From Sphingobacteriales bacterium (GTDB taxonomy: Bacteria; Bacteroidota; Bacteroidia; Chitinophagales; LD1), in the NCBI GenBank assembly GCA_018262795.1, contig JADFDM010000002.1:310001-374000 (forward strand): DNA of 64,000 bases, written 5' to 3'. The translations under genes and the position numbers were made by a program. The notes under the pieces are model-generated. The model ran no database searches and was not told the DNA's origin. It was given only the letters and a program-made list of their open reading frames with translations. This document shows positions 6,382 to 11,010 of the stretch, one piece after another; position 1 is the first letter of the stretch, and the number at the start of each line of letters is the position of its first letter.

Positions 6382-7215
6382 TTAATACCAAAACAGGAGA
6401 TCAAATTTGTAAACATCGTAGGTGGCCGTGTACTTATTATCACAGGTTCCATCTCCAAAATCAACAATCACAGGAGTGGGGTCGTTATTACTGTGAATGG
6501 TTACGATACCACTGGAGAGATACCGACAATTTAACTTCCACAAAATATCTTTAGAGACAGCATCCCAAGGGTTTCCATTAAATCCAACACCGCTACTTAC
6601 TGCTTGACCAGTGTATTCATCATCCGAAATAATCAAGGTGCTGAAACCGCCTGTTTGAACCGAACTGCGAGTGGCCTCCCAAGTACAGACCTTACCGTCA
6701 GGAGTTGTAGCCTTTGCATTGGTAATGGTATCTACAAAGGTGCGAGAGTTAGCATTCGGGCTGGTATTGGCCAATGCGTAATGGCCTTCTAACTTTACCC
6801 CATTCACATAGTAGTTAGTGAAAGAAACATCTACATGCGCACCGGGATTGTGTAAGTAATCGGTAAATACCGCAGTCAATACCCCTTTGCGGGTAACTCC
6901 GTATTGGTCGGTGCAGCCTACATTTCCAAAATCAACAGTTACAGTTTTGGGGAAAGTAGTGAAATCGTTAGGGCTAAGTGTAACGTTAGCGCAAATAGCA
7001 TTAATGCCGCCTATCCCTTCATTTTTACCATTTAAACTATTCTCCGCAGCCGCGTCATTCACCGTTTTGTTTACATCCTTAAACAGATTGTCAACGGTAG
7101 TGTAAGAGGTGCCGGCATCGGCATCAAAGGTCTTTGGTTTTGGTTTGGTGCAGGCAGAAAAAATTAAACCACTCAACACTACCAGGGCGAAGGAGAAACG
7201 AATTTTCTTTTTCAT
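6382..7215 (-). CDS. Hypothetical lipoprotein
   Basis: I do not recognise the family. The ORF track begins at 7260, but the internal ATG at 7215 starts a textbook lipoprotein signal (MKKKIRFSFALVVLSGLIFSACTK), with the lipobox Cys near residue 22. The mature part of about 255 residues is polar and beta-rich with repeated short motifs (TVDFGNVGCTDQYGVTRKG, VIVDFGDGTCDNKY). The 'DFG..GC.D' phrase occurs twice, suggesting two related halves with paired cysteines. Probably a membrane-anchored envelope protein of unknown role. It shares a terminator with the OstA-like gene. Confidence 0.75.
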   Translation of the reverse strand: MKKKIRFSFALVVLSGLIFSACTKPKPKTFDADAGTSYTTVDNLFKDVNKTVNDAAAENSLNGKNEGIGGINAICANVTLSPNDFTTFPKTVTVDFGNVGCTDQYGVTRKGVLTAVFTDYLHNPGAHVDVSFTNYYVNGVKLEGHYALANTSPNANSRTFVDTITNAKATTPDGKVCTWEATRSSVQTGGFSTLIISDDEYTGQAVSSGVGFNGNPWDAVSKDILWKLNCRYLSSGIVTIHSNNDPTPVIVDFGDGTCDNKYTATYDVYKFDLLFWY

Positions 7216-7261
7216 TGGATTGGATTTTGGTTTGTAAATAAAAAAGGAAAATTGTTTCATA

Positions 7262-7648: not shown

Positions 7649-7699
7649 ATGCAATTTCATATACTTTGCGTCTTATTGTTAAACAAAAAAACAACTACC

Positions 7700-8137
7700 A
7701 TGAAAAGAATGAAAATCACCACACTGGTTTTAATGCTGGCAGCAGTTGGCTGCTCCTTTAAAACCGCATCGGCACAGTCTGATGCAAACAAAGATGAGGC
7801 GAAGAAAGGCGCCAAAGAGATTACCAAGTTTGCCGCCAACAAAATACTGGGCGACAACGATCTCAGTTTTATTGACATGCTTTCTGTAAAAGATGCTACC
7901 ATGAGCCGGGGCAAAGGAGAAGCCAAAAAAGAAGTAACCTTGAAAGGCAAAACCTTTACAGCCGGAGAAAAACTTAGTGAGGAAGATGCGGCCATCATTA
8001 ACAAAGCCATAGCCGAGTATAACAAAACTAACAAACCCACAAAAGCAGAAGGTAAATCGCGCGGATCGGCCGATTGTTACTATTACTGCTACTACGATTA
8101 CTATGGCAACTATGTTTGCTATTGGTATTGCGACTAA
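7700..8137 (+). CDS. Small secreted protein with Tyr/Cys-rich C-terminal tail (unknown family)
   Basis: I do not recognise this family. Of the possible starts, ATG 7700 fits best: it follows an A-rich leader and begins a signal peptide (MKRMKITTLVLMLAAVG...TASAQ). An alternative is lipoprotein processing at the Cys in AAVGC. The middle (about residues 27-120) is charged and helical. The last ~20 residues are striking: CYYYCYYDYYGNYVCYWYCD, in which four Cys form CX3C-X9-CX3C around a likely DYYGN turn, and almost everything else is aromatic. This suggests a disulfide-braced aromatic hairpin, a metal- or haem-binding element, or a cross-linkable adhesive tail. A terminator follows, and the next gene is a T9SS cargo protein. 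Confidence 0.72.
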   Translation: MKRMKITTLVLMLAAVGCSFKTASAQSDANKDEAKKGAKEITKFAANKILGDNDLSFIDMLSVKDATMSRGKGEAKKEVTLKGKTFTAGEKLSEEDAAIINKAIAEYNKTNKPTKAEGKSRGSADCYYYCYYDYYGNYVCYWYCD

Positions 8138-8158: not shown

Positions 8159-8195
8159 CAAGCGCCATCTCTATTCGGGGTGGCGTTTGTGTTTT
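8159..8195 (+). terminator. Rho-independent terminator
   Basis: CAAGCGCCA pairs with TGGCGTTTG (one G-T wobble) and is followed by TGTTTTAT. It separates the Tyr/Cys-tail gene from the next promoter. Confidence 0.75.
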
Positions 8196-8262: not shown

Positions 8263-11010
8263 ATGAAAAAAACGCTTGCGGCCTTTCTGCTTATTTTCGC
8301 TTCTATCAGTCTGTATTCGCAAGGAGGAATGACGGTGAAGCAATACAACTTCACTTCATTTCATACAGATCGAAAATTTATCCCTGAAATATTAGAACAA
8401 AAGTCAACTTCGCAAGGCAAGGAACACCCTGAATACGGCATTTTACCCTACAATGCTCAATGCACCAATTGTGTGGAGTTAGTCGCTAAACGGAGCGCTG
8501 ACTCACGACAGTTTTTTAATCCTTACCAACCCAATCATACTTATTCACAGAAATCATTTTTTCCGTTGCACTATCGCAAAAGTGAAAAGGATGTATGGCG
8601 CACGATTGATTTTCGTCTTCGACCTGATGAAAAAAATGCCGGCATATATAAAGCCCTAAATCAACCCGTGCCCACCGAATGTAACCTCCAGCGCAAAACC
8701 ACTTCTTTATTCACCAACGGGTTTCAGTTTGAATTTAACCACCGGCTTTCGATGTATTTTTTTGATGATAATGATGCCTATACTAAAACAGAGGAAGGAA
8801 ATTATACCGACTACACCATCGGAGAGGAAGGGCTTTATGTAAAGAACATTTGGAAAGGGATAGACTTAGAGGAGATATTTAATGTGGGAGAAGTGGAAGC
8901 AAATTATGTAATCCGTTCTCCGCTCGACCTTCCCATCCGTAAGGGCTGGATGGTTATTGAAGATCACTTCACGTTGCCTGAAGGATACTCCATCCATGAA
9001 TCAAAGAAAGGCGAACGCATAGATGGGAAATATTACCGTGGTGACTATATCATTCGAAACAATCGAGGAGAAGATATTATCAATTACGAGAAGCCGGTGT
9101 ATCTGGATGCCAAAGCCTATGGCGAACACGGGCAGTATGAATTGTTGAAAGCCGGGGATGATTATACTTTAAAGATGTTGATACCGGTGGAATGGCTCAG
9201 TCGCAAAGACCAGACGTACCCTCTTACGATAGACCCTATTGTGTCCGGGGCGCAAAAGTTAGGTGACTTCCGCTTAGCGGGGCCTTCGGCAGGAATGGCT
9301 TTTACCACGATGGCTTTGGGCAGTTGTGATTATTTTCTGACCGATACCGTGCCGGGCATGAGCCAATTGACCAATGCTTATGTAGATTTGGAATATCAAC
9401 TCACCTACGATAACGCTTGTGGCACTCCTCCCCTGCCACCGCCTTTCTGCACCTTTAGTCAGGTAACGATGGAAGTGCTTTGCGATACCTGCCATACTTC
9501 CACCGGATTATTGGCTTGCAATCCGGCTCTCCCTCCTTACACCGGTACTTGCACTACGGATCCTAACTTGGTTCCCGGAGCAGGGCCATTGCTCATCAAT
9601 AATTTCACCCCTAACTACATGAGTTGCTTGCCTCCACAGTGTCCTGATTATGCTTTAGACTTTACGCTTAAAAACAGAGATTCCATTTGTGGGGATGTAT
9701 GTGGCTTTCTTTGTGCGCGGGGCAATATGTGGCGGATGACCATAGAAGCCTGCACCGTAGAAGGAACCATTTCACAAGACAAAACACAAGTATGTGCCGG
9801 AGAGCCGGTCACTTTCACCGCTCACCCCAATTGCGGAGTGCCGCCTTACCATTACTATTGGACGCAAGATGGTGGAAACACTTATGATACCATCTACGGC
9901 ACCCCTGATTATGTTATCCATCCACAAGCCGATGTAACGGTGGGCTGCTATATAGCTGACACCTGCGAAAATCTGGCACAAGCGAATGACTTAGATGTAG
10001 ATGTAATTGCCTCCCCGCCTGCCGATGCCGGCCCCGACCATTATTTATGCGAAGGGGGCTCCGTGCAGATAGGCGGTAGCCCATCGAGTTCAGGAGGAGC
10101 CAACATTCAATGGACCGGAGAGAATGCGACTGTTCAAAGTTGGCTGAGTGCTGCCAATATTTCAAATCCGGCAGTGGTGGTTCCTGCCGGACTGGTAGAT
10201 ACTGTCTATTATGTATTACGAGCTTCTGACTTGAGTTGCTTTAGAACAGACACGGTACAAATTTACTCGCAGGCAAATCCCACCGCTACTATTGACAGCA
10301 GTGGTTCTACCAGAGTTTGTGTGAACCAATCGGTAACGCTTTTTGTGGATAGCCCATTCGTCACTTATCAATGGAATACGGGAAGCACTGCTGCTTCCAT
10401 CACGGTTAGTCAACCGGGACTGTACTATGCAGTGGTGACGGATCAGAATGGCTGCATAGACACCACCAACAGCATTACAGTGAGTAATATCACGCCTCCC
10501 GTTGTACACGTATTTCCCGATACCTTGATCTTTTTCGGTGACAGCGTTACTTTATACTCCGACTATAACTTAGGTTCCGTTTCAGTTGATTCTTTCGCTT
10601 GGTATCCGCTGGTAAAAATCTCCTGCACCAATTGCCCCTCGCCTGTAGTTTCTCCCGAAAGTGATCAATACTACGGACTTACAGTGTACACCGGAGGTTG
10701 CTCGGTATCTGACTCCGCATTGATACGAGTTATACTTCCCAACAACTTTTACATCCCAAATGCCTTTACCCCTAACGGAGATGGTAACAACGATGATTTT
10801 TATGTGCTTTCGCAGAGTGGGGTGCGCGTGCTGCTATTTCAAGTATTTAACCGCATTGGCGAAAAGGTGCATGAAGGCAACTATGCGTGGAACGGCACTT
10901 ACAAAGGGAAACCGGCACCTCCGGGAGTGTATGTTTATATCTTCAAACTTGGACTTTATGGCGATGACCGCAGCGTGTTTAGAAAAGGAAGTGTGACGGT
11001 GATTCGGTAG
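8263..11010 (+). CDS. T9SS-secreted surface protein with gliding-motility-associated (type B) C-terminal domain
   Basis: A signal peptide (MKKTLAAFLLIFASISLYSQ) precedes about 300 residues of beta-rich sequence that I cannot assign. A Cys-rich segment follows (many CxxC-like pairs, residues ~350-520), then several Ig/PKD-like modules (GEPVTFTAHPNCG, VCVNQSVTLFVDSPFVTYQW, ADAGPDHYLCEGGSVQIGG). The last ~90 residues, starting at NNFYIPNAFTPNGDGNND, are the CHU_C/TIGR04131-type sorting domain. By family knowledge this domain directs export through the type IX system with surface display or release. The precise substrate or adhesion target is unknown. It is a monocistronic gene with its own promoter. 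No por/gld machinery is visible in the window. Confidence 0.85.
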   Translation: MKKTLAAFLLIFASISLYSQGGMTVKQYNFTSFHTDRKFIPEILEQKSTSQGKEHPEYGILPYNAQCTNCVELVAKRSADSRQFFNPYQPNHTYSQKSFFPLHYRKSEKDVWRTIDFRLRPDEKNAGIYKALNQPVPTECNLQRKTTSLFTNGFQFEFNHRLSMYFFDDNDAYTKTEEGNYTDYTIGEEGLYVKNIWKGIDLEEIFNVGEVEANYVIRSPLDLPIRKGWMVIEDHFTLPEGYSIHESKKGERIDGKYYRGDYIIRNNRGEDIINYEKPVYLDAKAYGEHGQYELLKAGDDYTLKMLIPVEWLSRKDQTYPLTIDPIVSGAQKLGDFRLAGPSAGMAFTTMALGSCDYFLTDTVPGMSQLTNAYVDLEYQLTYDNACGTPPLPPPFCTFSQVTMEVLCDTCHTSTGLLACNPALPPYTGTCTTDPNLVPGAGPLLINNFTPNYMSCLPPQCPDYALDFTLKNRDSICGDVCGFLCARGNMWRMTIEACTVEGTISQDKTQVCAGEPVTFTAHPNCGVPPYHYYWTQDGGNTYDTIYGTPDYVIHPQADVTVGCYIADTCENLAQANDLDVDVIASPPADAGPDHYLCEGGSVQIGGSPSSSGGANIQWTGENATVQSWLSAANISNPAVVVPAGLVDTVYYVLRASDLSCFRTDTVQIYSQANPTATIDSSGSTRVCVNQSVTLFVDSPFVTYQWNTGSTAASITVSQPGLYYAVVTDQNGCIDTTNSITVSNITPPVVHVFPDTLIFFGDSVTLYSDYNLGSVSVDSFAWYPLVKISCTNCPSPVVSPESDQYYGLTVYTGGCSVSDSALIRVILPNNFYIPNAFTPNGDGNNDDFYVLSQSGVRVLLFQVFNRIGEKVHEGNYAWNGTYKGKPAPPGVYVYIFKLGLYGDDRSVFRKGSVTVIR

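Follow-up and report, generated by a model that had tools for sequence, protein, structure and literature searches.

The window (the whole stretch of 64,000 nucleotides that was analysed) carries on its forward strand, at positions 7700-8137, a gene for a protein of 145 amino acids plus stop, present as a single copy in its own 3.48-Mb genome. The start, stop and tail of this open reading frame were borne out on re-reading, and the homologue alignment sets the start at the Met at 7700, which the homologues share, not at an upstream ATG at 7649. The gene stands alone between a gene on the reverse strand (6382-7260), divergent from it and encoding a putative exported (lipo)protein of 292 amino acids without a Pfam match, and a downstream gene (8263-11010) for a type IX cargo protein with CHU_C. 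An intrinsic terminator follows on the forward strand (8159-8189; 13-bp stem, then T-rich; MFE -20.2 kcal/mol, z -6.8), and terminator-like hairpins, judged by eye, also lie 3' of the other copies of the family described below; a search of the 150 upstream bases of each copy examined turned up no promoter element of the Bacteroidetes type (TAnnTTTG).

The protein opens with a predicted Sec signal peptide of 25 residues (7700-7774), with cleavage predicted at SA^Q26, and continues as a body of two units, which were modelled by AF2 run on a two-sequence alignment. Unit 1 (residues 40-69; 7817-7906) has a short strand, a G-x-x-L-like motif and a helix (52-61), with a pLDDT of about 82 over residues 41-60; unit 2 (residues 72-112; 7913-8035) has a beta hairpin (strands 78-81 and 84-87), an A-G-x-x-L-[TS] motif and a helix (94-110), with a pLDDT of about 90. 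The body might hold an internal duplication, for which p fell below 0.03 in only 4 of the 12 sequences, three of them near-identical. The units are joined by a conserved Arg-Gly (R70-G71; 7907-7912), its Arg kept in all 12 members and its Gly in 11 of the 12, and a K-S-R-G segment (8054-8065) with a second conserved Arg stands right before the tail as a proposed cleavage or hinge site. The tail itself, CYYYCYYDYYGNYVCYWYCD, occupies residues 126-145 (8075-8134) and is proposed to form a hairpin with C126-C144 and C130-C140 pairs. Structure prediction, a check that the sequence-only reading had put forward, went part of the way: AF2 builds strands 126-132 and 138-144 in a register where C126 faces C144 and C130 faces C140, at low confidence (pLDDT of only about 55), and for the homologue from genome G008 it leaves the tail unresolved (pLDDT about 40).

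Searching for homologues across Bacteroidota, likewise proposed from the sequence, returned 11, all ending in a tail, in eight other Chitinophagales genomes. The homologue in G008, of the same genus as the window, is 36-38% identical over its length, while profile searches reached genus g54, from another family of the same order (G249, G420, G399, G425 and two copies each in G423 and G402), and genus g204 (two copies in G472, one truncated at a contig end). The family is rare, since 396 genomes drawn across the phylum yielded only the window's own copy, and it is patchy in its distribution. The exact tail DNA pattern recovered its own copy alone in 399 genomes of the order, and a related-locus search found only G008 on genome contigs and nothing on viral contigs or plasmids. 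Pfam, NCBIfam and PADLOC hold no relative of the family, the PDB gave nothing significant by sequence or by fold, PHROGs gave weak matches only, each to one member and none common to members, and a literature search on the tail letters found no match; the claim that no known family has such an ending thus stands, as judged by the Pfam, NCBIfam and PDB searches. Matches to Pfam SDA1 and to an NCBIfam lipoprotein, far below cut-off, were rejected, and weak body-only matches in G221, G107 and G072 appear unrelated to the family. The gene is a member of a rare family of secreted bacterial proteins that is apparently undescribed. An apparent decayed copy lies in G385 (L068:1221-1557), where a signal-peptide-like start and a broken middle precede the tail end CDWYGYCYWYKYWYYC and then a terminator-like hairpin.

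The last 20 residues of the window protein hold 10 Tyr, 1 Trp and 4 Cys, so that the earlier count was right for Trp and Cys and one short for Tyr, at nine; its Cys spacing, C-x3-C-x9-C-x3-C, was given correctly. Tyr, Trp and Cys together make up 15-17 per 20 residues in the 12 family members, whereas a survey of 322 kb from its own and related genomes, covering about 1470 frames without a stop and no shorter than 60 amino acids, found no frame outside the family above 10 per 20; a binomial estimate for at least 15 in 20, with background frequencies assumed, is about 7e-15. A tail so extreme in Tyr, Trp and Cys is not there by chance. Phe, His and Met are absent from all 12 tails, aromatic positions interchange between Tyr and Trp while the Cys stay put, and Cys is confined to the tail, none occurring in any of the 12 mature bodies. 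The Cys count is always even, four in 11 of the 12 members and six in one. Across genera, composition is kept and exact Cys spacing is not: most relatives read Cx6Cx5Cx8C, G008 reads Cx3Cx11CC, asymmetric and ending in CC, and the six-Cys tail of G402b reads CC-x5-C-x5-C-x5-C-x-C, its inner spacing again symmetric (C-x5-C, a loop of 5, C-x5-C). The symmetrical twin CX3C described from the sequence therefore proves to be the window copy's own version. Where the window has YYGNYVC most relatives have DGYGYC, and G423a has YGNC.

Several lines of evidence point to the tail as the element under selection. For nine members compared in 36 pairs, the pooled pN/pS comes to 0.076 for the tail versus 0.383 for the mature body, a ratio to be read as a guide only, as pairs are non-independent and synonymous sites in the tail are few; mean identity over the same pairs is 90% in the tail versus 63% in the body. 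G249 and G423b have identical tail proteins despite 6 synonymous differences, with bodies 73% identical. The tail is the best-preserved part of the protein, and probably its working part. A conserved body lacking the tail, which the sequence-only reading had named as the finding that would speak against it, was sought in genomes of the order and in the 396 across the phylum, with weak matches inspected, and none was found; nor did the tail occur on another body, tail-only profiles over 72 genomes returning the family and one remnant only. Sequence comparison thus supports a selected element over noise.

Export by Sec, claimed from the start, is upheld: in 11 of 11 complete members a Gln directly follows the predicted signal peptide. 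Under the Q-rule of Bacteroidetes a Gln stands right after the signal peptidase I cleavage site (PMC5837995), and the predicted site carries this feature. The window signal peptide also contains a lipobox-like LAAVGC18; since relatives have no lipobox at that place, signal peptidase I cleavage at Q26 is preferred over lipidation for the window copy. All 12 members share two invariant Arg residues, one mid-body and one close to the start of the tail, of which the second precedes the first Cys of the tail by 1-4 residues and stays constant in a linker whose length varies. They are the sole Args of the mature window protein, against 18 Lys, and the sole mature-body Args in G008, G249, G420, G399 and G402b as well, Lys numbering 7-18 across this set. 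The pattern suggests Arg-directed processing, against which it counts that the residue after the invariant Arg is not fully constant (RA at the tail site in three near-identical members, RS mid-body in one).

Candidate proteases are found at some loci. Genes for exported caspase-like (peptidase C14) proteases lie near 7 of the 8 copies in genus g54, and the tail gene sits inside exported C14 clusters in G249, G420, G399, G423 and G402:C42, in the last of which it begins 60 bases after a C14 gene; the other copy in G402 is about 2 kb from the nearest such gene. Four clusters (G249, G399, G423, G402) also hold an exported WCGPC thioredoxin-like gene. The statement that no maturation enzymes lie next door therefore holds at the window and fails for several relatives, which adjoin both kinds of gene. 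Several relatives sit within the metacaspase/orthocaspase (C14) clusters of Bacteroidota, and metacaspases cleave after Arg or Lys (PMC3501461), although the tail gene itself encodes no protease. Within g54, genomes with the tail gene have 7-18 C14 matches and those without have 0-14 (one-sided Mann-Whitney p=0.0006, genomes of at least 2.5 Mb, kinship uncorrected). The window, G008, G425 and G472 loci have no C14 neighbours, so the link between tail gene and C14 proteases is suggestive only; the window's own genome has four C14 matches, all away from the tail gene. Also against the link, genomes rich in C14 genes, G421 for one, have no tail protein. Reading the open reading frames around the copies examined, the window included, revealed no recognisable RiPP-type modifying enzyme. 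Some 5 kb away from the truncated copy in G472 lies a molybdopterin-type dehydrogenase pair that other loci do not share.

Our tentative proposal, held at a probability of about 0.4, is a secreted pre-pro-protein that ends in an aromatic hairpin held by paired disulfides, with cleavage directed at Arg serving to expose or free this hairpin. Export through Sec and signal peptidase I would leave an N-terminal (pyro)glutamate, and the body, free of Cys, rich in Lys and Glu and built of two units that contain helices, could serve to keep the aromatic C-terminus soluble. After export the tail Cys would pair as C130-C140 and C126-C144, locking two strands into a hairpin lined with Tyr and Trp. A protease directed at Arg might then cut at the invariant residue that precedes the tail, perhaps at the mid-body Arg too, and so expose the hairpin or release a peptide of about 20-25 residues, which may act at the surface or membrane. 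The observation made from the sequence is confirmed, and its interpretation partly supported. The family, apparently undescribed, stands out for an extreme and strongly conserved composition, dominated by Tyr, Trp and Cys and always free of Phe, and its tail could supply a minimal disulfide hairpin of aromatic residues, of use in materials or peptide research.

The tail might instead stay attached, as a sticky or self-associating Tyr/Trp surface module, possibly hardened by dityrosine, that binds polysaccharide, the outer surface or the protein itself, the Arg sites being structural; we regard this as somewhat unlikely. The exclusive use of Tyr and Trp, with no Phe in 12 sequences, suggests that hydroxyl or indole groups are important, as they would be if the tail formed hydrogen bonds, stacked on sugars or underwent oxidative coupling, and the exchange of Tyr for Trp around fixed Cys would suit such a surface. 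However, no recognisable oxidase was found among the open reading frames beside any copy examined, and each protein has a single short tail, whereas adhesives usually carry repeats. An attached module also leaves the invariant Arg before the tail unexplained.

An unlikely reading is that of a secreted antimicrobial peptide precursor directed against competitors, in the manner of the bacteroidetocins, which are four-Cys exported peptides of Bacteroidota, expected to form disulfides, with a thiol oxidoreductase encoded nearby (PMC6671954). The host phylum, the export, the four tail Cys and the thioredoxin-like gene adjoining several copies, comparable to the oxidoreductase of those loci, all fit, and patchy presence with a decayed remnant in G385 is what accessory competition genes display. 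Bacteroidetocins, however, have a double-glycine leader of 15-16 amino acids and a dedicated ABC peptidase-transporter (PMC6671954), whereas the tail protein has a Sec-type signal ending SA^Q, a body of about 100 amino acids and a C-terminal Tyr/Trp tail; leader, transporter and architecture set the two apart, and family searches showed no sequence relation. Among neighbouring open reading frames no ABC peptidase-transporter gene is common to the loci, an ABC transporter near the G472 copy having no counterpart elsewhere, and there is no transporter, immunity or partner gene that they all have. The tail is, moreover, almost uncharged. The window's YYGN-Y-V-C, followed by another Cys, does resemble the YGNGVxC box of class IIa (pediocin-like) bacteriocins, but the full box is not present and a YYGN-like motif is missing in relatives, except for YGNC in G423a. 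Class IIa bacteriocins space their Cys as C-x4-C, the window as C-x3-C; the window motif also lies near the C-terminus instead of the peptide N-terminus, leaves no room for a C-terminal helix and belongs to a protein exported by Sec.

A bolder version of the proposed hairpin, which we rate as decidedly unlikely, is that the disulfide-locked Tyr/Trp structure bears additional cross-links between its aromatic side chains (dityrosine, Tyr-Trp or Tyr-Cys) and is freed by the exported caspase-like proteases, making it a new class of extracellular peptide. If so, Bacteroidota metacaspases would gain a natural extracellular substrate, and release of the tail by these proteases would make the open question of bacterial metacaspase targets directly testable. 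Use of Cys and Tyr to bind a metal, haem or another cofactor, an option raised earlier on the strength of the sequence, is highly improbable: CX3C pairs and many Tyr could in principle be ligands, but the option is weakened by a ligand spacing that differs between genera (3/9/3, 6/5/8, 3/11/0, 0/5/5/5/1), no tail has His or Met, and the exported location favours disulfides. A role of the tail as sorting or anchoring tag for a dedicated enzyme, as its C-terminal position and strong conservation might suggest, is largely refuted and barely credible, given that such tags sit on many unrelated proteins whereas the tail-only profiles found this family and a remnant only. Pfam and NCBIfam detect no type IX sorting domain (CHU_C or Por-type) in the tail protein.

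Exported C14 proteases are a wider feature of these genomes, with up to 18 matches per genome in genus g54. Large clusters of their genes, which include WD40, TPR, ankyrin-like or DUF4384 parts, occur at L023, L032, L033, L035, L037 and L054-L058, and related C14 pairs or clusters without a tail gene are found in G417, G410, G426, G409 and G421. Near C14 genes at two of these loci (L037:8898-9338 and L057:10058-10495) lies another small exported protein, with a segment SRG-(N/D)VYGPxYSDVV; its body is unrelated to the tail family and it has a similar SRG step.
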